From Clostridia bacterium (lineage in GTDB: Bacteria; Bacillota; Clostridia; Christensenellales; Aristaeellaceae), in NCBI GenBank assembly GCA_017541105.1, contig JAFXZS010000016.1:124001-188000 (forward strand): a stretch of DNA of 64,000 nucleotides, in the 5' to 3' direction. Made by a program: the position numbers and the translations under genes. The notes under the pieces were generated by a model, which had not been told where the DNA came from, made no database searches, and worked only from the letters and a program-made list of their open reading frames with translations. Shown here piece after piece: positions 1 through 10,151 of the stretch. The first letter of the stretch is position 1. Each line of letters begins with the position of its first letter.

Positions 1-55
1 GAGATGTGCGCGGCGTACCTGGGCGAGATTACTAACAAAGAGAGGAGGCGAGATC

Positions 56-155
56 ATGGGGTAGTTATCAGGACAACTGGCAGCAACTCAAACAGGCCCC
101 CAACAGATGGAACACCATGCTGCTGACTATCATCCGGAGCTGGCCGGAAAACTGA
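56..155 (+). pseudogene. Small phage-type ORF broken by a GGGG run
   Basis: A strong ribosome binding site (GAGAGGAGG, about 40-48) stands seven bases before ATG 56, yet that frame reads ATG GGG TAG and stops. If one G of the GGGG run is skipped, the frame opens into a protein-like stretch of about 32 residues (M-G-S-Y-Q-D-N-W-Q-Q-L-K..., ending ...R-S-W-P-E-N) that stops at 153-155. A further short open stretch in the same frame (171-251) ends just before a hairpin. I infer a decayed small gene at the end of a phage-type operon. A one-base sequencing error in the homopolymer would look the same. I do not recognise the family. Confidence 0.3.
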
Positions 156-252
156 CTCCATTCGGAATCGATGTCGGTGGTTATCGGAATGACACCTGTG
201 ATGACTTCCGGCATAGGAACTGTGAGGAACAAAACATGGCATGTCCAATAAT

Positions 253-286
253 ACGGAGGGGGCAGGCTAGAATCCCCCCCCTCCGT
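253..286. terminator. GC-rich hairpin, terminator-like
   Basis: ACGGAGGGGG (253-262) pairs perfectly with CCCCCTCCGT (277-286) around an 11-14 base loop. It lies two bases after a stop codon at 249-251. There is no T-run after it, so rho-independent termination is uncertain. It may instead be a processing or roadblock hairpin. Confidence 0.45.
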
Positions 287-1090
287 GATCCCAATCGATC
301 GGCAGTATGGAAATAGCCTCAGAAATGCGGCCTAGCTAATATACCCCTTGGCTGGATCGATGTACCGTTATAATTCTTCCTCTGTTTCCTATCCGTTTCA
401 GTCTCGAGCTGAACGCAGATGCTGATGCAGCAGGAATACTCTAAAACGTGACTGATGAATTTGACAGGAAATGAAAACTGATAGCCAGCGAGTGGAAGAG
501 CTTGAATCATCAGCTGCATTTTTCAGAAGGAACGGTAGTTGTTAATTGTACCCCCTACATATTTCATATAACCATGAGCATTTATACGACTTTATCGAGT
601 GATAAGTTTTTCACAAGAAAGGCAGCGAACAGGATTCTTCTTTGTTCTTAGGATAATTAATCAGTTTAAGCAGATAAAGAACAACTTCTGGTAGGTTTGC
701 AAGAAGAAAGAGAAACACATGTGATGATCATCGTTATTGATTCGGAATTAGGAAATCTAACCGTCATAGAAAGAATAATTGTTCATTGTATGCTTGCTCA
801 TAGGGATAATACTCAAGATCTTATCAGCGATCATCAGCGGGAATATCGATCGAGTTATATAAGTTCACCCTCCAGGTTTACTGGATCCACTAGACATGGG
901 CGGACGCATATTGGCATTAACGGTACTGGGGGAAAAGGAAAAAGCGTCTGCGCACCACTGACGACTATATCCCTATAGACGGGGGGGGGATACCCCCCTC
1001 CCCGCCTTCGGTGCGACCTTCCTTTCCGCCGTCTGGGAAAATTCACTGGGGATCCATGATTCTACACAGGAAGGATGGATATACCTACAC
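287..1090. other. Degenerate, mostly non-coding stretch of the element
   Basis: No convincing gene is seen. Short open stretches look like remnants: about 24 codons from an ATG near 454 preceded by GACAGGAA, and an open frame at 697-978 that could start at TTG 697 or an ATG near 724 but matches nothing I know. At 980-1004 a run of nine Gs is followed by ATA and C-tracts (C6, T, C4), which can fold as a GC hairpin similar in style to the one at 253-286. The base composition is more AT-rich than the chromosome to the right. Confidence 0.4.
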
Positions 1091-1612
1091 ATGAAAAACA
1101 GCATGATATCCTGTGTAATCTGCGGGGAAAAGTTCGTACCATCGACACCGAACGCGAAGTATTGTTCTCCTGAATGCGCGGAAACTGGACAGAACGCGCG
1201 TCGGCGCGAATGGGAACAGCGCACAGGATACCTTGAGAAGAAGAGAAGACAAGCCCAGGAACGCCGGAACGCGATAAAAGCTGCCGCACAAGCCGAGAAA
1301 GATGCAGCTGCAAGACAAGCGGCGGAGGAGCGCCAACGGCTGGGAAAAGAGCGTATAGAGGTCGCGCAGAATGCGCTTATTCAATCAATCGAGCGCGGGG
1401 AACCGCTTGCCAGGATGAGGGTCTATCCGCCGAATACGCTGGAATATTGGGAAGCTTATCGGGACTATGATATCAGTTATGCCGAAAGCATAGGAAAAAG
1501 ATGCTATACGACTGTTAATGATATATATGTTACGGATGCTGATTTCCCAAACTTAATGATTATAAGCATTCGAGAACTTGGACAGATCCGGGAGGATGTG
1601 CGTCATGTATGA
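1091..1612 (+). CDS. Zinc-finger phage-type protein, 173 aa
   Basis: The N-terminus carries a treble-clef-like CxxC...CxxxC pattern (C-V-I-C-G near residue 8 and C-S-P-E-C near residue 26), typical of small zinc-binding phage or mobile-element proteins. It is followed by a long, strongly charged Arg/Lys/Glu/Ala-rich helix (residues 35-95, probable coiled coil) and a mixed C-terminal region rich in Tyr. The start could be ATG 1091 or ATG 1103; neither has an ideal Shine-Dalgarno. The 3' end overlaps the next tiny gene by eight bases, which suggests translational coupling. I do not know a named function. DNA or RNA binding is inferred from the zinc ribbon and basic helix. Confidence 0.6.
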   Translation: MKNSMISCVICGEKFVPSTPNAKYCSPECAETGQNARRREWEQRTGYLEKKRRQAQERRNAIKAAAQAEKDAAARQAAEERQRLGKERIEVAQNALIQSIERGEPLARMRVYPPNTLEYWEAYRDYDISYAESIGKRCYTTVNDIYVTDADFPNLMIISIRELGQIREDVRHV

Positions 1613-1694
1613 CCATATAATCATTGTCACCGGTGAGACAGGCAGCAGGATCCGCAGTGAGTACAGACTTCCGTTACGAAAGGATAGTCCATGA
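1605..1694 (+). CDS. Tiny coupled gene, 29 aa
   Basis: An ATG at 1605 follows GGGAGG at ideal distance and opens a 29-residue frame (M-Y-D-H-I-I-I-V-T-G-E-T-G-S...). Its stop overlaps the ATG of the next gene (ATGA at 1691-1694). Its start also overlaps the previous gene. This stop-start chaining with a good ribosome binding site supports real translation despite the size. The product is unknown, and it may mainly relay ribosomes to the downstream gene. Confidence 0.5.
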   Translation: MYDHIIIVTGETGSRIRSEYRLPLRKDSP

Positions 1695-1894
1695 GAAAAG
1701 ACATCTACAGCCTCAGAGAACACGAAGACAGTCCGACACCAAAGCAGGGATATGGTAAATATGGACGCAGCAAGGCACAGTGGCAACAGCGCAACAAAGA
1801 AGATGCCAGAAAAAAACTGAACCCACGCCTTGTACTATCAGATCCAGACATATTCTTTTCTGATTTGCTGATGGAGCAACAAGAACATACCTGA
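1691..1894 (+). CDS. Hypothetical element protein, 67 aa
   Basis: A basic, hydrophilic 67-residue protein (many Lys, Arg and Gln) starting at an ATGA overlap with the preceding 29-codon gene. It has no membrane segment or recognised domain. It sits just ahead of the sigma-like gene, in the position where phage early/middle regions carry small accessory proteins. The function is unknown. Confidence 0.5.
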   Translation: MRKDIYSLREHEDSPTPKQGYGKYGRSKAQWQQRNKEDARKKLNPRLVLSDPDIFFSDLLMEQQEHT

Positions 1895-1915
1895 CCGGGG
1901 AGGGAGGGGATTCCA

Positions 1916-2701
1916 TTGGATGAACTGATTCGGGATGCAGATATTCCAACGGCTGACCCTGCCGATATTGTCGAACAGTATAAAAGATGGGTTTGCAAGA
2001 TCGCAAACCAGTATCAGAGTTTCCTGGGCAAGAATGGCCGGATGGATATGGAAGACTTGAAGCAGGCCGGTTATATAGGCCTTCTGCAAGCTCAAAAAAC
2101 ATACATTCCGGATAATGGGGCATTTACCGGATGGAGTGCGTTTTATATAAGAAAGTATATCCGATATACAATAGGCTTCCGGCAAGACGGATCACTGCCG
2201 CCTGGCTGGATGGAGATCAGCCTTGACGCACCACTGCCGGAAGCGGATGGATTGACATTAAAGGACATAATCGCAGACACAGAAGTATTACCGCCAGAAG
2301 AAGCAATAGTGGAAGCTCAGCAGCAGCTGGAAGTATCAGAACATGTCAGGAAGGCTGTTGAACGCTTGAAAAACGGCAAGCAACGTGAAGTCATTACCAA
2401 GGTTTATCTTGAAGAACAGACAACAGAAGAAGCTGCTGACAGTATGGGATTAACGGCGAAACAGATAAGATCAATAAGCCTTGAAGGACGGTACAAACTT
2501 CAGCGGGATAGGAAACTGAAAACTCTTGCCAAGAAGTATTTCGGCCTTCATGTAGGGAAAAAGGCGTTCAATTCGACCTTCACGAGTGCTGTTGAGCTTG
2601 CGGTTCTGCGGCGAGAACAGGAGTTTGACAGGGCTTTCGGCATGGGGGCATACGCAGTAGAAAAAACAGCTGTTATCCAGGAGAACAGAGATGAAGAATA
2701 G
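1916..2701 (+). CDS. Sigma-70-like RNA polymerase factor of the element, 261 aa
   Basis: Probably directs host RNA polymerase to element promoters. Residues about 17-88 resemble sigma region 2 (I-V-E-Q-Y-K-R-W-V ... D-L-K-Q-A-G-Y-I-G-L-L-Q-A ... F-T-G-W-S-A-F-Y-I-R-K-Y-I-R). Residues about 155-200 resemble region 4, a helix-turn-helix around E-E-A-A-D-S-M-G-L-T-A-K-Q-I-R. A C-terminal extension of about 60 residues is not typical. Translation appears to start at TTG 1916, placed after a long purine-rich ribosome binding site (GGGAGGGAGGGGA, 1899-1911); no ATG exists nearby in frame. It overlaps the ArpU-like gene by eleven bases. The assignment rests on motif order, not on a database match. 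Confidence 0.75.
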   Translation: MDELIRDADIPTADPADIVEQYKRWVCKIANQYQSFLGKNGRMDMEDLKQAGYIGLLQAQKTYIPDNGAFTGWSAFYIRKYIRYTIGFRQDGSLPPGWMEISLDAPLPEADGLTLKDIIADTEVLPPEEAIVEAQQQLEVSEHVRKAVERLKNGKQREVITKVYLEEQTTEEAADSMGLTAKQIRSISLEGRYKLQRDRKLKTLAKKYFGLHVGKKAFNSTFTSAVELAVLRREQEFDRAFGMGAYAVEKTAVIQENRDEE

Positions 2702-3026
2702 ACAGCCATTATTGGAAACTGACAGAAAAGTGATTCTGAATTATCGATCAACCATAATGCTGATAGGAACCCTCCGGAATCAAATCAGTTGGAACGCAGC
2801 GCATCAGATCCCGGTTAGCCATCTACAGGAAGAAATCACGCAGCTAAAACAGGAACTTGTCAGTTTTGAGAATGTTCTAGCCAGCATTCAAGACCGGCAG
2901 GAACGTAATATCATCTGTTGCCGGTATGCACTAGGCATGAACACGCATGAAACAGCATACCAGCTGAGTATCTCACGCGCCACTGTCGGCCGCATATGTA
3001 AACACTATTTCAGCTCTGGGAGATAG
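2691..3026 (+). CDS. ArpU/sigma-region-4-like phage regulator, 111 aa
   Basis: A small regulator with a predicted coiled-coil middle (residues 45-72, E-E-I-T-Q-L-K-Q-E-L) and a C-terminal helix-turn-helix (residues 76-107: D-R-Q-E-R-N-I-I-C-C-R-Y ... A-Y-Q-L-S-I-S-R-A-T-V-G-R-I). This layout is that of ArpU/RinA-like late-gene activators of Firmicutes phages, which in intact phages sit just before the terminase genes. Here the next thing is not a terminase but the tail end of a capsid gene, ten bases on, which implies a large internal deletion. The gene starts inside the end of the sigma-like gene. Confidence 0.65.
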   Translation: MKNRQPLLETDRKVILNYRSTIMLIGTLRNQISWNAAHQIPVSHLQEEITQLKQELVSFENVLASIQDRQERNIICCRYALGMNTHETAYQLSISRATVGRICKHYFSSGR

Positions 3027-3618
3027 ATATACTGAATTAGAAGCGGACGGGAAGTGCTGCAAATGGTGCAGCGGGCTGGCCGGAACGTATGATTACGAGG
3101 ACGTGCGCGGGAGCGGGAACGATGTTTTCCGCCGGCACAAGAATTGTCACTGTCTGATCCTGTACAATCCGGGGGACGGAAGCAAGCGCAGGCAGAATGC
3201 GCACACAAAAAGATGGACTGAGGAGGATGAAGCTGCTAAAATAGCATACGAGAAGATAAGAAACTCTCTGCCGCCGTTGGAAAGAGGATTCGAAGAGGCA
3301 AAAGTATACGGAAAAACATGGCAGGAAGCAAGCCTGCAGGATACAGTGGCAAAGTTTGCCCCGAATGCGAAGCCGGAATCGGATATAAATGGCAGAAAAA
3401 TCGGCTACAAAGGCGAAAGATATATCGTTGTTTATGATGCAGGGGGCAATTATTTCACCATACAGGACACAAAAGACAGTTCAAAACGGCCATTTGTTGA
3501 TCTGAATGGGAATAAGATCCTGAACATCACTGAAAACGGAAAGCAGCGAGGAGCAACAAAAGAGGAGTATAGAGCCCTGACACACTTCAGAAACACTGAT
3601 CAGGAAAGGAGGCGCTAA
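3027..3618 (+). pseudogene. Truncated phage minor capsid (MuF-like) gene with toxin-like C-terminal domain
   Basis: The reading frame is open from about 2967 to the stop at 3618 but has no ATG, TTG or GTG until GTG 3103. The part before that (from about 3030) reads as the C-terminal Zn-ribbon tail of Clostridial phage minor capsid proteins: G-K-C-C-K-W-C-S-G-L-A-G-T-Y-D-Y, then R-R-H-K-N-C-H-C-L. A linker and a separate domain of about 110 residues follow (from W-T-E-E-D-E near 3213), with Y-I-V-V-Y-D-A-G-G-N-Y-F and, at the end, Y-R-A-L-T-H-F-R-N-T-D. That tail resembles C-terminal nuclease-type domains of polymorphic toxins. MuF proteins with such domains are a known temperate-phage toxin class. 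An immunity-like gene follows. I infer a remnant or orphan cassette; the capsid N-terminus is gone. Confidence 0.6.
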
Positions 3619-3620
3619 GC

Positions 3621-3944
3621 ATGCTCGCAAACGAGAATATGTGGATCACTGTCCCGAAAAACAAAAAGGGATATGAGGAATACGATCAGGGAATTGAACA
3701 TATAGAAAACATGGATGAATTCAGGTTTTCTCATGAAGAATATGAGAAGCTGGATAAAAACGGCGTCTTCCGAATTCTGGAGAACACATACAAGGAACTG
3801 TATATCTGTGAGTTTGAAAGCGCAACCATCACAGCTGAGCAGCTGAAAGCGGTTTACAATGCGATCAATGTTGTTGATGGAGTGTTTCTGCAAGCGGTAG
3901 ATATGGCAATCAAGTATGGTACATGTGTCTATCTGGATTTCTGA
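3621..3944 (+). CDS. Candidate immunity protein for the MuF-linked toxin domain, 107 aa
   Basis: An acidic, single-domain protein of 107 residues with many Glu, Asp and Tyr, no signal peptide and no membrane segment. That profile is usual for immunity proteins of polymorphic toxins. It starts three bases after the toxin-like frame ends, with a perfect AAAGGAGG ribosome binding site (3605-3611) lying inside the last codons of that frame. A rho-independent terminator follows at 4000, so the toxin remnant and this gene form the end of a transcript. The role is inferred from position, size and charge. I do not recognise the family. The intact start and RBS suggest it can be made even though the toxin gene lacks its own start. 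Confidence 0.55.
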   Translation: MLANENMWITVPKNKKGYEEYDQGIEHIENMDEFRFSHEEYEKLDKNGVFRILENTYKELYICEFESATITAEQLKAVYNAINVVDGVFLQAVDMAIKYGTCVYLDF

Positions 3945-3998
3945 TTGAATGATATCAAACATTGCTACGCATTTAGAACTATAGCCCAAGTATATCAT

Positions 3999-4031
3999 AA
4001 AGCTCGACGAATGAAACGCCGGGCTTTTTTG
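3999..4031 (+). terminator. Rho-independent terminator after the immunity-like gene
   Basis: AAGCTCGACG pairs with CGCCGGGCTT (one mismatch and one wobble) around a short A-rich loop and is followed by six Ts. It separates the plus-strand phage-type genes from the origin-like region. Confidence 0.75.
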
Positions 4032-4237
4032 ATGCTCCAAATGAATAAAAGCGCCGCGGGACGTGCAAAAAGAAGATTGAAAGGGAGTGAAATGCTCTTC
4101 AGCATCTTCCGCTCTCCGGATCCTGGTCGGTGGAAGTCTGTACACCTGGACAGGTCCGGCAGCGTTGAGATCAGGATCCGAATCTAGAGACGGGGGTTCG
4201 CTCCGACATCTTGGGGAACTATAACTAATACATATAT
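4032..4237. other. Intergenic stretch before the iterons
   Basis: About 200 bases with no supported gene. A continuous frame (3945-4187) runs through the terminator and has no ribosome binding site, so I do not accept it. A tRNA-like snippet (GGGGGTTCGCTCC near 4192-4204) has no matching acceptor or anticodon arms. Confidence 0.4.
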
Positions 4238-4289
4238 ACTGTTACTACTGTTATATCTGTTATTACTGTTACAACCGTTACAACTGTTA
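4238..4289 (+). repeat. Six tandem 9-bp iterons (ACTGTTA core)
   Basis: The seven-base core ACTGTTA (variants TCTGTTA, ACCGTTA) starts at 4238, 4247, 4256, 4265, 4274 and 4283, an exact 9-bp period. A seventh forward copy lies at 4331. Inverted copies (TAACAGT/TAACGGT) are at 4386, 4395 and 4439, and another forward variant (ACCGTTA) is at 4459. Between the clusters lies an AT-rich stretch. Iterons in two orientations around AT-rich DNA, next to the primase-helicase gene, are the arrangement of satellite (SaPI-like) and plasmid replication origins. I infer that this is the element's origin. Confidence 0.7.
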
Positions 4290-4430
4290 TCCCCCTGAGG
4301 TTAACGGTTAAAAATAGTTAAATGGTTTGAACTGTTACCCTTTGAAAGCTTATGTTTCAAGGCATCCAGACGAAGAGCAACAGTATAACAGTTATAACGG
4401 TTCATCTGTAAAAAACGTTCTAAAACAAAG
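4290..4430. other. AT-rich core and inverted iterons of the putative origin
   Basis: Contains GGTTAACGGTTAAAAATAGTTAAATGG (given here only as a run of GTTAA-like motifs at 4300-4327) and the inverted iteron cluster at 4378-4402 with 8-9 bp spacing. No gene is seen. It would be the melting region if the iterons are an origin. Confidence 0.5.
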
Positions 4431-4478
4431 GAACAGGGTAACAGTTTCTCATTGTTCAACCGTTACCCTGTTTTTCAG
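4431..4478. terminator. Hairpin at the 3' end of the primase-helicase gene
   Basis: AACAGGGTAAC (4432-4442) pairs perfectly with GTTACCCTGTT (4462-4472) and is followed on the plus strand by a T-run. Both arms contain an iteron core, so it may double as part of the origin. On the minus strand it lies just beyond the stop of the primase-helicase gene. Confidence 0.5.
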
Positions 4479-6556
4479 TATTCAATGCGCTGCTGTTCCG
4501 GATCCGGTCGGTAAATCTTGCACCGGCGGCCGTGCTTGCCTCCGTTCGGATCAAGGCACCTGATCACGATGCCCTCACATGAAAGCCGGTACTCAACCGT
4601 GTTGAGCAACCTCCGCATCTGTTCCGGTGAATTGGCAGGATATTGGCGTGTCTTGTTTGCAACTTCTTGTATTAAATCCGACATCTTGCCAATCCAGCCG
4701 GTGGGGGATTCCTCTAACAGTTTTCTTATTGTGAACACAACAGGATTCTGATTGTACCGGCTAATCTCGCGCTCTTCTTCGCAATCCTCAACGGTTCCCG
4801 TTATCTTCCATTTGTAGTCGCGGAACGTTGCTTCGAAGTCCATCTGCCCGGAATCATTGTCGCGGCAGATCACGGAAAAGCGTTTCCGGTCATCGGTGCG
4901 CCGGCCAATGATCATCCATGCGCAATCTGCGCTACCAAATTGAGCAATTGACCCAATGATCTCGTTGAAAGGATCATCACCGGGGAGAATCTTATTACCT
5001 TTCCTTGTATGCATGACACAGAGCACAGAAAGATTATATTTCAGCGCTAAATCGTGGAGTGGTTCCAGGATCCTGTTATCTGCTGAGTAGGAATCTTCTG
5101 TTCTGCGCTGTGATCCTTTGACTTGCTGAAGCATATCAATGATAATCAGCACCGGCGGCTGCGAACGTGTAGTAATCCATCTCTCTAACTGAGTAACAAG
5201 GCCCAAATCTGTTGTCCTGGCTTTATATGTTAATGATAAGCCTCTTGGCATCTTCGGAAACCCGATATCACGCAGCCGCTTTTTTGTACGTGATAATGCG
5301 CCTTGAAGATCCATGTACAGAACCGGCCCAGGTCGCAATACACTAAACCCCATGAACGGCTTGCCGGTCACAACACAGCAGCCCAGCTGAAGCACCATGT
5401 ACGTTTTTCCCATTTTTGCTGGTGCGCCAAGCATACCGAGTCCTGGGAAAAGGATCTGATCAATAATCGGCTCTGGCTCTGGTATATCTGTATTGTTGAT
5501 ATAATCAGCATCATAGGTGATTAGATCAGGGATAGTATTCTTAAGGGCTGCCGGTTCTTCTACTCCTGGAGTGGTGATTAATGTTTTCCCTGGTATCGGT
5601 TGCTCAGGATCCGCGCCGGCGACTGGATAGTCCTTTGTAATTATATCATCCCAACTGATCACGTTTTCACCTTGAGCCGGTTCCAATGCTGGTGCGGTGT
5701 GTTTCTCGGCTGTCGAGATTAGCACATCCAGTGTTTGCGCAGCTTTCTCCGGGCCAACCGCTTTGACATAATCGGAAATATCTGCTTTTTCCGGACAATC
5801 TGCCCAGGCTGCCGGAAGATCCAGCAAGTAAACAGCTGCCGCTGTCCTGGTTATCTGCTGAGCTTCGAGCATGGCAAACTGTTTCCCGATGTCGTCATTA
5901 TCCCAAAGGATATAAACGGTTTTCCCGGTCAGCTGCTGGTTGTACTCTTCCAGCCATTTCCCGCCATCTGACCTGGAAGCGCCGTTTTCGGCGGACACAG
6001 CCGTTTTGTTTATGAGGCTGTGGACAGTGTTAGCGTCCTTTTCACCCTCAACGACAAAGACCGTATCCGTTTTGATGCTTCCAGCAACATAAAGCCGGTG
6101 AGCGCTGCCGGTGTGCGTCATTGCGTAGCCGCTGGCCTTGCTGCTGTCTTCACGCATCCATCGAAAATCCTTTGTCCCGTCCGGCTTTCGAAAACGAATC
6201 TTGCAAAGGCCGTCATTATATTGTCCGTAACAATAGGAATACGATTCGACAAGCGTCAATCCGTTCTTCTTCGTGAACCAATCCAGAAAAGTATATGGAT
6301 TTTTCCCGGCGAAGAGATCAGCGACAGAACAGCCAACGGCCTCGCAGATCTCCGTAACAGTGCAGCCTGTGAAACAGTTCACTAAAAGCTTCCCGTTTTG
6401 CCTGTCGTACATGATCGACAGGCTTTTGTTCTGGTCGTTGTGCTTGTGGTTCTGGCTGCATGGGCAGGAAGCCCTCCATTTGTCCGGGCCGGCTGACTCG
6501 ACATTCTTCAAGCGTGATGTGAATGGATGAGTGTTAAATCGAAAAGCACTGCTCAT
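4475..6556 (-). CDS. Primase-helicase (Toprim plus RepA-type ATPase), 693 aa
   Basis: A replication protein of phage satellites and integrative elements that makes primers and unwinds DNA. In order it has an N-terminal CHC2-type zinc-binding part (residues about 28-80, with C-P-C-S-Q-N-H and N-C-F-T-G-C), a Toprim domain (about 160-260, F-V-V-E-G-E-K-D-A-N and I-L-W-D-N-D-D), and a RepA/AAA_25 ATPase (about 365-570). The ATPase has Walker A G-A-P-A-K-M-G-K-T and Walker B-like V-L-I-I-I-D-M-L. The start ATG at 6556 follows GGAGGT. The gene runs from the Cro-like genes toward the iteron cluster, which fits a Pri-Rep protein acting on its own adjacent origin. The length is normal for fused primase-helicases. 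Confidence 0.85.
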   Translation of the reverse strand: MSSAFRFNTHPFTSRLKNVESAGPDKWRASCPCSQNHKHNDQNKSLSIMYDRQNGKLLVNCFTGCTVTEICEAVGCSVADLFAGKNPYTFLDWFTKKNGLTLVESYSYCYGQYNDGLCKIRFRKPDGTKDFRWMREDSSKASGYAMTHTGSAHRLYVAGSIKTDTVFVVEGEKDANTVHSLINKTAVSAENGASRSDGGKWLEEYNQQLTGKTVYILWDNDDIGKQFAMLEAQQITRTAAAVYLLDLPAAWADCPEKADISDYVKAVGPEKAAQTLDVLISTAEKHTAPALEPAQGENVISWDDIITKDYPVAGADPEQPIPGKTLITTPGVEEPAALKNTIPDLITYDADYINNTDIPEPEPIIDQILFPGLGMLGAPAKMGKTYMVLQLGCCVVTGKPFMGFSVLRPGPVLYMDLQGALSRTKKRLRDIGFPKMPRGLSLTYKARTTDLGLVTQLERWITTRSQPPVLIIIDMLQQVKGSQRRTEDSYSADNRILEPLHDLALKYNLSVLCVMHTRKGNKILPGDDPFNEIIGSIAQFGSADCAWMIIGRRTDDRKRFSVICRDNDSGQMDFEATFRDYKWKITGTVEDCEEEREISRYNQNPVVFTIRKLLEESPTGWIGKMSDLIQEVANKTRQYPANSPEQMRRLLNTVEYRLSCEGIVIRCLDPNGGKHGRRCKIYRPDPEQQRIEY

Positions 6557-6574
6557 TTATGCTACAACCTCCAA

Positions 6575-6838
6575 TCACGCTTCGAAAGAATCGTTTGTCC
6601 TTTCCATCTGTTGCCGGATTGCCGTTTCCAGTGCTTCCAGATTCCACTTCTGTTTCCGGAACTTCATCCCGGGGGAGCCGCACAGAATGACCGGATACCG
6701 ACCTTCTTTCCCTCCTCGTCTTAGCTCATACTGTGACAGGCCGGTTGCAGCTGCAGCTTCTTCTGTGGTGAGTAGACGGTCATACAGGCCACGTTGGTCA
6801 AGCTGCTGCTGGATCTGAGTTCTGATATTCTCACTCAT
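6575..6838 (-). CDS. Small HTH, excisionase-like DNA-binding protein, 87 aa
   Basis: I chose the ATG at 6838 (M-S-E-N-I-R-T...), which overlaps the stop of the upstream gene as ATGA; the longer frame runs back into that gene. Residues about 18-45 form a MerR/Xis-like winged helix segment (L-L-T-T-E-E-A-A-A-A-T-G-L-S-Q-Y-E-L-R-R). The rest is a short basic wing and helix. In satellites the gene between the Cro-like regulator and the primase is often the excisionase, so I infer that role. It could also be a simple repressor. Confidence 0.55.
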   Translation of the reverse strand: MSENIRTQIQQQLDQRGLYDRLLTTEEAAAATGLSQYELRRGGKEGRYPVILCGSPGMKFRKQKWNLEALETAIRQQMERTNDSFEA

Positions 6839-7022
6839 GATCCTGGCCACCCTTCGCGATGTATTCATCAATGAGTTCGCAGATCCTGTCCTGTTCTTCT
6901 GCTGGCATTTCATTTCGGAGCATCCGGCAGCGTGTTGGCTCGCTGATCCCAAGGATCTTGTCCAGCTCGTAATACTTCATTCCGTTTTCTGTAAGTTTGA
7001 ATCTGATTTTTAAATTATTCAT
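6831..7022 (-). CDS. Cro-like small HTH regulator, 63 aa
   Basis: A 63-residue protein with one helix-turn-helix (Y-Y-E-L-D-K-I-L-G-I-S-E-P-T-R-C-R-M-L), divergent from the CI-type repressor at 7180, with an operator-like palindrome between them. It is the first gene of the minus-strand replication operon. GGAGGG precedes its ATG. It would be the counterpart of Cro or SaPI Str. The family is assigned by size, fold pattern and position. Confidence 0.6.
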   Translation of the reverse strand: MNNLKIRFKLTENGMKYYELDKILGISEPTRCRMLRNEMPAEEQDRICELIDEYIAKGGQDHE

Positions 7023-7088
7023 AGTTTCCCTCCATCATTGATTATTGTGTATGTGACCACACCGTGCGCTTCAGCTTGGCCAGGAATC

Positions 7089-7133
7089 GGAATATTCCTT
7101 ATGCTTGACAGCTTATCATCATTAATGTATAAT
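7089..7133 (+). promoter_or_regulatory. Consensus promoter and operator of the CI-type repressor gene
   Basis: TTGACA (7105-7110) and TATAAT (7128-7133) are separated by exactly 17 bases. Directly upstream lies the 10-bp palindrome GGAATATTCC (7089-7098), a natural candidate operator for the divergent repressor/Cro pair. The promoter drives the plus-strand repressor. Confidence 0.8.
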
Positions 7134-7179
7134 TTGAAGTCCAAGAGAGTGCCCAAAGAAAGGAGGTGGAAACAATATA

Positions 7180-7767
7180 ATGGATAAAGAAATATCTAAA
7201 CAAATCAAGGCTATCAGGGTATCTCATGGTTTCAAAAGTCAACAATCATTTGCCGATGCTCTTCATGTCCATCTAAAGACTGTCCAGGGATGGGAGAAAG
7301 AAAGCAATCCCAAATTGCCGGATCTTGATAATCTATTGTCAATGTGCGCTGTATTGGATTGTGATCTGGATTATCTGATTGGACGCATCAAGGAAAAGAC
7401 ACATGATATCAAAACAGTTTGCGGGATAACAGGATTGTCAGAAAATGCAGTCACTTGGATTAGTAATCTTGATAAAGACTATTTGGCTGCATTTGATCGA
7501 TTCATCCTGCATGAAGAATTTAAAAACATGATGGATTCGTATGTTGTTTTCCTAAAACTGTTAAATGATGCTTCAGAAAGATTTGATCCTGGTACAACTG
7601 GGGCAAGTATTGGCGTTGGGATCGAGGCTCCAATATCAGTTGAACAAGACGGATCCGTGACAGTTTCCTCAATTTGGCAAGTATTGTCGTTAATTGGGCA
7701 TGATGTCGGGTTTTATGCAGAACTAATAACGGATAATGACAGAATGAAATTGTGGAACAAAGAATAA
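7180..7767 (+). CDS. XRE-family, CI/Stl-type repressor, 195 aa
   Basis: An N-terminal XRE helix-turn-helix (residues about 8-62: F-K-S-Q-Q-S-F-A-D-A-L-H-V-H-L-K-T-V-Q-G-W-E) is followed by a C-terminal domain of about 130 residues that lacks a recognisable LexA/CI peptidase Ser-Lys dyad. Without that, RecA-triggered self-cleavage is unlikely. Release by an antirepressor, as in SaPI Stl, or by proteolysis is a plausible alternative; this is inference. It has an AAAGGAGGTGG ribosome binding site and its own consensus promoter. It is divergent from the Cro-like gene, as expected for the switch of an integrated element. Confidence 0.75.
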   Translation: MDKEISKQIKAIRVSHGFKSQQSFADALHVHLKTVQGWEKESNPKLPDLDNLLSMCAVLDCDLDYLIGRIKEKTHDIKTVCGITGLSENAVTWISNLDKDYLAAFDRFILHEEFKNMMDSYVVFLKLLNDASERFDPGTTGASIGVGIEAPISVEQDGSVTVSSIWQVLSLIGHDVGFYAELITDNDRMKLWNKE

Positions 7768-7837
7768 AAAAGCTGCTGCCGGAGGTCCAGTCCAGCAGCA
7801 GCGAGGCACCCCAACCCATACCAGGAAGGAAGCACCA

Positions 7838-8602
7838 ATGGAATTATACTCCGGAGGGACGTTTCCTTTCAATATAAAACAATTAAGAAAGGAAGTACCC
7901 AACATGAAAATAAACGAAACGAACACCACCGCCGCGGAGAAGCTCACACTGTCTGAGATCGCAGCCATGCCCAGAAAGGCGGACCTTTATTTCACGAAGG
8001 AAAACGAGGAGCCGGAAGATGGTATTCTCTGGCATGAGATAGAGCTGGCAACGATTGTCGATCCGGGAATGTATGGCAGGATCATCGTTGTCAGCAAGGG
8101 AGGATACCGCGACTTTGATATCTGTGATGACCTGCTGGATGATCCGACCATCGCGTTTTGGAACCGTGAACCAGATCACCAGCAGCTCAAAGGGGTTTCT
8201 GAGGATGAATTCAACACGCTGCCGGAAGGGATCCTTCTCAAGAATCTTTCCCGTCGGATCACATCGGAGAAAATGACCTTTGAAACGTTCTGCCGTGATG
8301 CCGATCTGGACCTGGACAGTTTCACCAATGCGATGACCGGAAACTCTGATTTTACCGCGGGGATGGTCGCGAAAATCAGTAAGATTCTGAACCTTACTGA
8401 TGGCGAAATGATGGATTTGTTCACGGTGAAGCACCAGGATGAGGAACCGGTCGCTCCAGCAGTGGCTCCGGATCCTGAACCGGAGAATCCAATGACAAAA
8501 GAGCTCGCGAAACTCACCGTCAAATTGTTCCAAATGCCGGAGGAAAAGTCGAAACGGCTGGTTCCGCTGATCTGGAACCTGATCAATAACTATACGGCTT
8601 GA
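7838..8602 (+). CDS. Unknown element protein with HTH-like C-terminal segment, 254 aa
   Basis: I do not recognise this family. The ATG at 7838 (after GGAAGGAAG) gives 254 residues. An internal ATG at 7904, also after a good AAAGGAAGT, gives 232 and may be the true start, with the first 22 residues a leader. Residues about 140-195 look like an XRE-type helical bundle (M-T-F-E-T-F-C-R-D-A-D-L-D-L ... M-V-A-K-I-S-K-I-L-N-L-T). A Pro/Glu-rich linker and a short helical tail follow. It lies between repressor and integrase on the same strand, so it may act in maintenance of the integrated state. Confidence 0.6.
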   Translation: MELYSGGTFPFNIKQLRKEVPNMKINETNTTAAEKLTLSEIAAMPRKADLYFTKENEEPEDGILWHEIELATIVDPGMYGRIIVVSKGGYRDFDICDDLLDDPTIAFWNREPDHQQLKGVSEDEFNTLPEGILLKNLSRRITSEKMTFETFCRDADLDLDSFTNAMTGNSDFTAGMVAKISKILNLTDGEMMDLFTVKHQDEEPVAPAVAPDPEPENPMTKELAKLTVKLFQMPEEKSKRLVPLIWNLINNYTA

Positions 8603-8703
8603 TGCCGTAGATCTGACGGATGTACAGACTTCCATTATGTTGCCGGTGCTGTTGGTGTAGGAACTGACAGCCCCGGCGGGAAAACTGACAGGAGGCGCGA
8701 GCA

Positions 8704-9966
8704 ATGGCATCGGTGGAACTGGTCAACCTTAGCACGGGAACATGGAAAGCAATCGTCTGTGATGGATATAACCCGGACGGCACGAAGAAAAGAGTAAAGA
8801 GGACGATCAAAGTTAATCCGAACAGCACTGAAGACAGTCAGCGAAAACAGGCGAAAAGGCAAGCGGAAGCCCTGGAAACCGATTACCGGCGGCACCTGAT
8901 TACCGAAGCAAAGAAGATTAGGCTGTATGATGTTGCTAAGGAATTCCTGGAATCAAAGCCGATGGCGGAGAGCACAAAGGCCGGATATCTCGCTTTGCTT
9001 GACCGGAGAATCAAGGACAAGATCGGAAATATCTATATCCAGGATCTCACTCCGCGACAGATTCGAGAATTCTATAAGTATCTGGAGCAGGATCCAGCGC
9101 GACCGGCTCACAATGTCAGCAAGGACAAGGACAAGCAAAAGCCAAAAACAAGATCAAAGACGGGGAAGCTCTCCGGAACCAGCCGCAAGCATTATCATCA
9201 GTTTTTATCCGCTGTTCTTAATTTCGCTGTCAGATCCGGCTATATTGTTGTCAATCCGATTGCTGCGGTCGATCCGCCTCGACAGGATACTAAGGAATCA
9301 GAATTCTTGGAAGGGGAGGATGTAGCTAGGCTGATGGAAGCGCTGGAAGATTGCCCGGATCCGATGTGGCAGGCATTCTTTACGCTGGATCTGTTCTCGT
9401 CCTGCCGGCCAGGGGAACTGATCGCGCTGAATTGGTCAGATCTTGAAGTTAAGGAAGAAGGGGCAGACATAAAGCGGTATATCCTCACAATCAGCGCCGG
9501 CGCAAATCGCGTAAAAGGGGAAGGGACGATCCGCACCGACAGGCCCAAGACAAAGGCTTCGATTCGGTCAATTGTTTTGCCTCCGGAGGCTGTGCAGCCG
9601 CTTCTTCGATGGAAAGCCGTCCAGGCTGCACTGCGGCTCAAGTGTGGGAAGGGATGGGAAGAACATGGCGCTATGTTTACCAATAATACAGGCCGCCGGC
9701 TGTATATCTCTACACCGACCCATAAATGGAGAGAGATACAGCAGCGGTATGAGCTGAAGGATGTGCCTCTTTACAGCCTCCGCCACACTGGTGCTTCTTT
9801 ACTGATCGCTGCCGGCTGTGATGTGAAGGAAGTGTCTGGACGCCTGGGGCATTCCAGGACAAGCACGACCTTGGATACCTATACACACCTCTTCGAGAAG
9901 GCGCAACAGCATACAGCGGATGTAATGAGCGCAGCCATTGCAAAGGCACGGAAAGAGGCAAAATAG
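8704..9966 (+). CDS. int: Tyrosine recombinase (phage-type integrase), 420 aa
   Basis: Catalyses site-specific integration and excision of the element. It has an N-terminal arm-binding region (residues 1-60), a SAM-like core-binding domain (about 75-185) and a C-terminal catalytic domain with the first Arg in S-C-R-P-G-E-L (about residue 233), the box-II Y-S-L-R-H-T-G-A-S-L-L (about 359-369), L-G-H-S with its His, and the Tyr nucleophile in L-D-T-Y-T-H-L-F (about 395). Full length and intact. An AGGAGGCG ribosome binding site precedes ATG 8704. It lies 114 bp from the 3' end of tRNA-Trp, the usual place for an integrase relative to its attachment site. Confidence 0.93.
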   Translation: MASVELVNLSTGTWKAIVCDGYNPDGTKKRVKRTIKVNPNSTEDSQRKQAKRQAEALETDYRRHLITEAKKIRLYDVAKEFLESKPMAESTKAGYLALLDRRIKDKIGNIYIQDLTPRQIREFYKYLEQDPARPAHNVSKDKDKQKPKTRSKTGKLSGTSRKHYHQFLSAVLNFAVRSGYIVVNPIAAVDPPRQDTKESEFLEGEDVARLMEALEDCPDPMWQAFFTLDLFSSCRPGELIALNWSDLEVKEEGADIKRYILTISAGANRVKGEGTIRTDRPKTKASIRSIVLPPEAVQPLLRWKAVQAALRLKCGKGWEEHGAMFTNNTGRRLYISTPTHKWREIQQRYELKDVPLYSLRHTGASLLIAAGCDVKEVSGRLGHSRTSTTLDTYTHLFEKAQQHTADVMSAAIAKARKEAK

Positions 9967-10001
9967 TCCCCTGATGTGTAGTAGTCCCCAAAGTAGTCCC
10001 C
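9964..10001 (+). repeat. Three direct TAGTCCCC repeats beside the integrase
   Basis: TAGTCCCC occurs at 9964-9971, 9982-9989 and 9994-10001, the first overlapping the integrase stop codon. Short direct repeats between an integrase gene and the tRNA attachment site are typical of arm-type integrase-binding sites. That role is inferred. Confidence 0.45.
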
Positions 10002-10040
10002 AAGGCAAGCAAAAAGCAGTTTCCACCGATGCAAAAGAAG

Positions 10041-10071
10041 AACCCTGCAGGCTTTATATCTGCAGGGTTTT
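10041..10071. terminator. Bidirectional terminator between integrase and tRNA-Trp
   Basis: AACCCTGCAG (10041-10050) pairs perfectly with CTGCAGGGTT (10060-10069). It is followed by Ts on the plus strand and, read on the minus strand, by a T-rich run that would end the tRNA transcript. Confidence 0.8.
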
Positions 10072-10080
10072 GCTTGTCAG

Positions 10081-10151
10081 CAGGGGCAGAAGGATTCGAA
10101 CCCTCAACAAAGGTTTTGGAGACCCACGTGTTACCATTACACCATGCCCCT
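10081..10151 (-). tRNA. trnW: tRNA-Trp (anticodon CCA); probable attachment site of the element
   Basis: A 71-nt cloverleaf can be folded on the minus strand: 7-bp acceptor AGGGGCA/TGCCCCT with discriminator G, anticodon loop C-T-C-C-A-A-A with CCA, and T-arm with GGTTCGAATCC. The lowest anticodon-stem pair is a T-T mismatch with a wobble next to it, as far as I can fold it. The 3' CCA is not encoded. The element's integrase lies on the 3' side, so the 3' half of this gene is the likely att site. The partner att repeat must lie left of the window. Confidence 0.9.

Follow-up and report, generated by a model that had tools for sequence, protein, structure and literature searches.

The window analysed here is a 64,000-nucleotide stretch of DNA from a Clostridia bacterium (contig JAFXZS010000016.1). 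Directly behind a regulatory gene that we take to be ArpU-like (open reading frame [ORF] 2691-3026), it carries a polymorphic-toxin tip joined to the C-terminal part of a MuF-type phage minor head protein, in a frame without a start codon, and next to it an intact gene of the cognate immunity family. In the explanation that we consider probable, this displaced tip and its immunity gene were captured behind the ArpU-like gene, and the likely role of the cassette is protection by the immunity gene. The host of the cassette appears to be a satellite-like element of about 11.9 kb.

The frame that encodes the tip is uninterrupted on the plus strand from 2968 to 3615 (216 codons), with a stop codon at 3616-3618. 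It contains no Met codon anywhere between 3031 and 3615, and its earliest alternative start, GTG 3103, lies within the capsid segment, with a GAGG just 2 nt 5′ of it. Residues 6 to 95 of the translation from 3031 match positions 181 to 265 of the 399 positions of PHROG 2494, “minor head protein” (E = 9e-24), so that the C-terminal part of the MuF/minor head domain alone is present; two more PHROGs match the same stretch. Since the match begins at position 181, the capsid protein lacks roughly its N-terminal 180 residues. The ArpU-like ORF ends a few bases ahead of the capsid homology, which begins at about 3040-3046. An earlier sequence-only reading of this DNA had stated that both a start codon and a capsid N terminus are absent and that the frame abuts an ArpU-like gene, and on each of these points it was correct. 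A fusion of the ArpU-like protein with the toxin by frameshifting was considered and rejected, as no slippery site was seen by eye.

By tblastn (E up to 0.1), the frame matched 93 phage records, 74 of them from Streptococcus and 13 from Lactococcus, all with less than 60% identity. The sequence-only reading had recognized the Cys-rich tail of a Clostridial phage capsid protein; the minor head tail stands, but “Clostridial” was too narrow a description for matches that are mostly to Streptococcus and Lactococcus phages. In the phage relatives, the Cys-rich stretch is found at about residues 166 to 184 of a protein of 229 to 504 residues (contig ends truncate L009, L011, and L014). Inspection by eye placed a portal-like gene directly upstream of the MuF relative in L005, L006, L010, L013, L016, and L017, and a terminase-like gene farther along in L005, L006, L008, L009, L010, L013, L017, and L021. 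The MuF-type proteins of L008 and L009 stop right after the Cys-rich stretch, and other phage relatives carry differing C-terminal extensions, as is expected for a polymorphic toxin scaffold. At the DNA level, similarity to the phage collection did not go beyond two patches of about 40 bp, and a search of 150 relatives of the genome found the frame in its own genome only. Weak matches of the frame to Pfam DUF5486 (0.0017), Pfam VG15 (0.016), and PHROG 595 (3e-4) were left unused.

Behind the capsid segment, a separate domain starts at about residue 85 of the translation from 3031. Its match among viral contigs was L004, a MuF protein (47% identity; Pfam Phage_min_cap2, 1.6e-10), and a scan of the viral contigs with a four-row toxin alignment retained L004 alone among 184 pattern matches. 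Among plasmid records, the matches fell at the ends of two proteins, one with haemagglutinin repeats from Moraxella (38%, 3e-7) and one of PAAR type from Psychrobacter (29%, 1e-4). With the same four-row alignment, a genome scan gave 8 loci out of 88 pattern matches, located in metagenome-assembled genomes (MAGs) of Lachnospiraceae, Ruminococcus, and Clostridia and in Paludibacter, three Pseudomonas, and one Neisseria. The tip is carried by a PAAR scaffold in L019 (Pfam), by haemagglutinin-type scaffolds in L018 (record annotation) and L053 (by eye), by Rhs-like scaffolds in L022 and L026-L028 (by eye), and by MafB-like scaffolds in L029 and, in a longer frame, L055 (by eye). The last two have a DWVKN motif, which the accessible text of PMC4287609 names for MafB.

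Because the domain recurs on unrelated trafficking scaffolds (MuF, PAAR, portal, haemagglutinin-type, Rhs, and MafB-like), sequence comparison identifies it as a polymorphic-toxin tip, and its presence on five non-MuF scaffolds rules out an ordinary capsid C terminus. The separate domain seen in the sequence-only reading was thereby confirmed, and the orphan MuF-type toxin/immunity cassette that it proposed was supported. The portal scaffold was seen in a Ruminococcus MAG contig (CAMWQJ010000051.1; L023:2-1645), in which the tip is fused to the C terminus of a portal protein (PHROG 12, 1.5e-55) and followed by the immunity gene; it is a predicted portal-borne polymorphic toxin.

Across 16 aligned toxin sequences, one W, YF, one G, and TH are invariant, and 19 columns are near-invariant (at least 14 of 16 identical), a count that leaves out the near-identical L027 and the broken L056. 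The window tip deviates at four of these 19 columns, including a T for the R of YFRI that the 15 others all have. No deviation was found in nine relatives (L004, L022-L026, L028, L053, and L054), one or two in five, and seven in the distant L063. We read this, from one sequence only, as a window tip that is drifting early or attenuated.

The toxin family has no curated name. Pfam and NCBIfam gave no credible match for any of 10 toxin-domain members (best E, 0.009), PADLOC gave none for the window frame or the L022 tip, and sequence searches of the PDB with the domain returned no credible relative; a phage tblastn search with the L004 toxin found nothing. A named Ntox/Tox family was thus rejected, no curated model having matched the window domain or its relatives, and the named domain for which the sequence-only reading had looked to profile searches did not emerge. 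In the part of the Zhang 2012 toxin table that was covered (PMC3482391), no family is recognizable by motif as the window domain, and DMP12, which is discussed below, is absent from the accessible text. A distant stand-alone toxin with an apparent start of its own and an adjoining immunity gene occurs in genome G418 (L063/L066; G418:C4 near 4100-4900), with a recombinase-like gene nearby (by eye); this pair is a possible toxin-antitoxin use of the same domain.

The gene that follows the tip (ORF 3621-3944) encodes an acidic protein with 20 acidic and 10 basic residues. In leave-one-out profiles, its family was the next gene at 18 of 18 toxin loci, the window included (E, 7e-30 to 2e-11), which are not all independent, as L026-L028 are near-identical and L029 and L055 very close. 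The leave-one-out training included the L063 row out of frame, and the tests for the window and for DMP12 were repeated without L063. At L054 a frame change divides the immunity gene into two pieces, the better of which scored 5e-14. None of 20 control loci had an adjacent member of the immunity family, and in 11 of them the same MuF scaffold ends in a different tip or lacks one. Among 391 class-level genomes, the toxin profile matched three (the window's own, G418, and a weak fragment in G622) and the immunity profile two (its own and G418); a distance of 91 bp separates the two G418 matches.

The pairing is not due to chance, because domain and neighbor recur together in 17 other loci, and sequence comparison assigns the gene at 3621-3944 to the cognate immunity family of the tip. 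Adjacency of the 107-residue family to such toxin domains, a point on which the sequence-only reading had staked its interpretation, therefore held at all of these loci and for both hits among the 391 genomes, the exception being two DMP12 genes of Neisseriaceae considered below. At one locus (L056; G216:C10 near 84000), an intact immunity gene directly follows a toxin frame that is in pieces, as would be predicted were protection the function retained. A viral-contig scan with the immunity protein found no relatives, and phage tblastn with that of the window or of L022 found none; PADLOC returned for the immunity proteins weak matches to CRISPR proteins only (E = 0.012 and 0.003), which we took as chance.

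The acidic 107-residue protein, its strong ribosome-binding site, and the terminator behind it had likewise been noted from the sequence and were found again (Table 1), though the consensus terminator scan did not list the hairpin at 3999-4030. A promoter-like site with a TG before the −10 is located at 3214-3242 (plus strand), inside the toxin frame and upstream of the immunity gene, which it could serve.

The window immunity protein has no match to Pfam DMP12 (PF16779); its distant homology to this family emerged through profile comparisons only. The Psychrobacter immunity protein matches both Pfam DMP12 (5.4e-19) and the DMP12 structure in the PDB (3w1o; 6e-19), and one of the ten members of alignment A4, assigned to the Neisseria one by elimination and genome search, matches Pfam DMP12 at 5e-77. 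An hhalign comparison of nine immunity proteins with two DMP12-type proteins gave a probability of 93.5 and an E value of 2.4e-7 over 103 columns. A profile built without the DMP12-type rows recovered both of them (6e-6 and 8e-6), and reversed controls scored no better than 0.6; a further profile match to the PDB DMP12, at 9.5e-33, was built in, as that profile contained L029.

DMP12-type genes stand directly behind the toxin domain in L029, L055, and L019. Among 83 genomes of Neisseriaceae, the family of Neisseria viridiae (G200), from which L029 stems, the toxin profile matched six and Pfam DMP12 four. An immunity gene lies behind the toxin at all six places, split in L054 and intact behind the broken toxin in L056. 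DMP12 is described in the accessible part of PMC5722371 as an HU-binding DNA mimic with a Kd of 2.8 uM. The available text of PMC9998046, on the gonococcus, counts dmp12 with the genes whose products are immunity or possibly toxin-antitoxin proteins, and that of a paper on restriction systems (PMC11090510) mentions a protein similar to such mimics that is encoded behind a coiled-coil nuclease fusion. Synteny gives the idea of DMP12 as an immunity protein a specific candidate partner, and the role of DMP12 itself may need rethinking. Since a basic toxin domain (21 K/R versus 16 D/E) is paired here with an acidic immunity family that has a DNA mimic among its relatives, the toxin probably acts on nucleic acid.

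The cassette is located in an element whose limits are set by attR and a second copy of its 42-bp exact repeat, 11,946 bp farther left; the two delimit about 11.9 kb at a tRNA-Trp gene (Table 1). Small genes, the NinG-like, sigma-like, and ArpU-like genes, and the cassette lie on the plus strand; the primase and two regulator genes are convergent to them, and the repressor, a 254-residue protein, and the integrase follow. The iteron array lies between the cassette and the primase. Its CYGTTA motif occurs 12 times, against a mean of 0.58 and a maximum of 4 in 1000 shuffles, at the densest place in the window, and the DNA between the two iteron sets is modestly AT-rich (60%, versus 52% for positions 1-10121).

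Helper-dependent mobilization is the defining trait of the phage-inducible chromosomal islands (PICIs). From its genes, we regard the element as a putative, PICI-like phage satellite: with PICIs as outlined in the accessible text of PMC6092414, it shares small size, an integrase with a specific att site (the 42-bp repeat at tRNA-Trp), a repressor, and an origin-like region of two iteron sets and AT-rich DNA beside the primase. It is unlike them in that the sigma/ArpU-like block is convergent with the primase. No portal or terminase was present among the element proteins scanned, which cover the element except for some small left-arm ORFs. Viral-contig scans with the primase and with the sigma factor found no relatives, and phage tblastn with the ArpU-like protein found none. 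About 1 kb of the left arm (130-1090) has no convincing ORF and is possibly decayed.

Table 1. Features of the cassette and of the satellite-like element (window positions; negative positions lie to the left of the window).
Feature	Position	Strand	Evidence
attL, outside the window	-1866 to -1825 (G000:C3:122135-122176)	.	42-bp exact repeat
NinG-like protein, left arm	1091..1612	+	Pfam NinG 4e-5, just below cut-off
Sigma-70-like factor, TTG start	1916..2701	+	Pfam Sigma70_r2 5.9e-9, r4 1.7e-6; relatives in G024, G044, G021
ArpU-like/sigma-region-4 regulator	2691..3026	+	PHROG 36 “transcriptional regulator,” E 1.4e-6; 38-43% identical copies in G024, G044, G021
C-terminal capsid (MuF/minor head) segment, Cys-rich, without start codon or N-terminal half	3031..3240	+	PHROG 2494; full-length phage relatives
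Polymorphic toxin domain (tip)	3283..3615	+	Homologues on six scaffold kinds; alignment A3; T for conserved R of YFRI
Ribosome-binding site of immunity gene, AAAGGAGG	3605..3612	+	8 nt before ATG
Immunity gene, 107 aa, distant relative of DMP12 family	3621..3944	+	Leave-one-out profile E 5.5e-15; hhalign
Terminator-like hairpin followed by U, behind immunity gene	3999..4030	+	Fold -11.6 kcal/mol, z -2.68
Iteron array, origin-like, 12 CYGTTA copies	4239..4465	.	Six at 9-bp spacing, then a set mostly on the other strand
Primase/helicase (Toprim-like + AAA_25)	4475..6556	-	Pfam AAA_25 3e-25; PHROG 6088 DNA primase 2.7e-22
Two small overlapping regulator/excisionase-like genes, 125 + 63 aa	6575..7022	-	PHROG 66 excisionase E 0.004; 48-76% identical stretches in related elements
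CI-like repressor, divergent to primase operon	7180..7767	+	Pfam HTH_3 3e-6
254-aa element-family protein	7838..8602	+	Copies (32-41% identity) in the three related elements; unmatched in Pfam, PHROG, and PADLOC
Tyrosine integrase	8704..9966	+	Pfam Phage_integrase 3.5e-18; 83% identical to that of the G024 element
attR, 42-bp exact repeat in tRNA-Trp (10080-10151, -)	10080..10121	.	Repeat match

Three related elements were found in other genomes of the genus: one of 13,147 bp in G024 (tRNA-Trp, 60-bp repeat), one of 11,725 bp in G021 (tRNA-Val, 45-bp repeat), and one of 10,670 bp in G044 (tRNA-Leu, 16-bp repeat). Each has sigma-like and ArpU-like proteins, a 63-residue regulator, a repressor, a 254-residue-type protein, and an integrase that are related to those of the window. 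The primase at the equivalent place differs in type between the window and its three relatives (AAA_25+Toprim, DUF3987, PriCT_2+AAA_25, and DUF927). ORF lists, with family scans of part of the ORFs, revealed no portal, terminase, major capsid, or tail gene in the three relatives.

The cassette is absent from all three. Behind the ArpU-like gene, the G024 element encodes a 120-residue sigma-region-4 protein and the G021 element a 113-residue protein of no known function, and in the G044 element no ORF of at least 80 residues is present on that strand before the primase. Since only the backbone, without the cassette, recurs in the three elements, the cassette looks like cargo in a variable slot rather than a prophage leftover.

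Other features of these elements were also recorded. Where the window has its iterons, the G024 element has a different repeated 7-mer, TATACAA, in nine copies, and elsewhere it encodes a prohead serine protease (L083:13407-14024; Pfam Peptidase_S78, 7e-45) without a recognized capsid gene. A 7.8-kb element at tRNA-Pro in G007 (L044:6496-14345; 21-bp repeat) contains an integrase, a repressor, and an AlpA-like gene (by eye), and its helicase is 38 to 40% identical to the window primase.

In the explanation that we favor, the tip and the immunity gene would have been captured in the variable slot of the PICI-like satellite. A transcript from the sigma/ArpU region would include the immunity gene, whose own strong ribosome-binding site would drive its translation, and the acidic DMP12-like protein would bind the active site of the matching toxin. 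Such a toxin may arrive by phage, on a MuF scaffold, or from a neighbor, on an Rhs, contact-dependent inhibition (CDI), or PAAR scaffold, and carriers of the satellite would survive. The tip itself would be untranslated, kept as a linked passenger or recombination reserve, and starting to drift.

Several observations weigh against this explanation. The promoter/terminator consensus scan was at chance level, with 2 promoter sites versus 3.1 expected. The weak toxin match in G622 (22 bits over 49 positions), which is outside the 18 loci, has no immunity match in its genome. As for the DMP12 relationship, a PDB profile search with the nine non-DMP12 immunity proteins (A5) reached DMP12 at an E value of 0.093, behind an unrelated protein, and the DMP12-type rows alone find most other family members at E values of 0.009 to 4.5. 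Two of the four Neisseriaceae DMP12 genes (L059 in G231 and L061 in G216) have no recognizable toxin neighbor. Finally, PHROG 2494 genes are present in 1 of 45 genomes of the genus, namely as the window's own fragment, so that the 44 others offer no donor MuF gene or helper, nor the full-length MuF genes with the same tail that the sequence-only reading had suggested looking for in related genomes. The full-length parent gene was not found in the window's own genome either; this genome is 62% complete, so that a helper prophage may be missing from it, and absence of a helper there is weak evidence. The DMP12 genes of L059 and L061 may be orphan immunity genes; a short MafB-like remnant is seen by eye upstream of that in L059.

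The cassette may alternatively be an inert relic, a product of chance phage recombination that is decaying and in which neither gene matters to the cell or the satellite. The lack of a toxin start, the four deviations at near-invariant positions, the absence of the cassette from the three sister elements, and the restriction of the frame to its own genome among 150 relatives all agree with this view. However, the 216-codon frame is uninterrupted, the immunity ORF retains its strong ribosome-binding site and ATG, and orphan immunity genes are reported as protective in other systems in the accessible text of PMC12483513. We regard a relic as unlikely, if worth keeping in mind.

A very unlikely proposition, raised in the sequence-only reading, is that the capsid segment serves as a homology arm through which the tip recombines with the MuF gene of a helper; toxin would then be loaded into helper virions, and only carriers of the satellite would be immune. 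The anatomy resembles that of the silent MafB cassettes, in which the start codon is missing and an immunity gene follows (PMC4287609, accessible part), and the satellite-like nature of the element strengthens the idea of a helper phage. Nevertheless, the genus offers no PHROG 2494 gene to receive the tip among the 44 other genomes, DNA similarity to the phage collection is confined to the two short patches, and the tip has drifted, with a change in a conserved motif.

We disfavor, as highly improbable, a defective prophage in which the cassette is what remained after deletion of the portal, the MuF N terminus, and the terminase. The order regulator-portal-MuF-terminase in phage contigs L005 and L013, and as far as MuF in L016 (by eye), fits such an origin. 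In contrast, the three related elements, at tRNA-Trp, tRNA-Val, and tRNA-Leu, have the same gene set with the sigma/ArpU block and also no portal, terminase, or MuF gene, and this block is convergent with the primase, unlike the colinear arrangement in phages. Least plausible is an addiction module, in which the toxin would be translated from GTG 3103 or by frameshifting from the ArpU-like ORF and the pair would retain the satellite like a toxin-antitoxin system: G418 offers a stand-alone version with an apparent start and an adjoining immunity gene, but this version is remote, with differences at 7 of the 19 near-invariant columns, and in the window the GAGG lies only 2 nt from GTG 3103 and no ATG is in frame.

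Displacement of a tip together with its immunity gene is known for orphan Rhs and CdiA tips, and a displaced Rhs-like tip was seen in L022. Compared with these, the window has a capsid scaffold instead of an Rhs or CDI one, on a satellite-like element. MuF polymorphic toxins, as presented in the accessible text of PMC5576092, resemble the window cassette in their capsid segment, variable C-terminal toxin, small adjacent immunity ORF, and homologous tips on other scaffolds. The window differs in that it has no MuF N terminus, start codon, or surrounding phage, and its toxin domain is unnamed in Pfam and NCBIfam; instead of lying downstream of a portal gene in a temperate phage, the cassette is on the satellite-like element.

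The MafB-CT silent cassettes of Neisseria (PMC4287609, in the part available) share with the window a start-less tip, a short scaffold homology, and an immunity gene next to it, and the same tip as that of the window occurs on the MafB-like scaffolds of L029 and L055. Maf cassettes sit behind a full-length mafB on the maf island, whereas no full-length parent gene was found in the window's genome. DMP12 (3w1o) is a distant homologue of the window immunity protein, but the description in PMC5722371, as far as accessible, concerns HU binding. Start-less toxin/immunity cassettes (MafB, CDI, and Rhs), MuF toxins, PICIs, and orphan immunity genes are thus already known kinds. A MuF cassette in a satellite was not found in the open-access literature, searched largely other than in full text and without subscription journals. 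As far as the searched literature shows, what is apparently new is a MuF cassette that lies on a satellite-like element, belongs to a toxin family without a curated name, and has immunity of the DMP12 type.

A more general scheme, which we consider distinctly unlikely, is that capsid-toxin tips without a start, accompanied by live immunity genes, accumulate in satellites as cargo, that this makes carriers resistant to phage particles loaded with toxin, that tips spliced into helper capsid genes let helper virions poison non-carriers, and that DMP12 is the immunity protein of an unnamed toxin family. Satellites may give their hosts immunity to toxins delivered by phage particles, and DMP12-type proteins may exist to neutralize the toxin family of the window, with HU binding as a secondary property; both propositions become directly testable.
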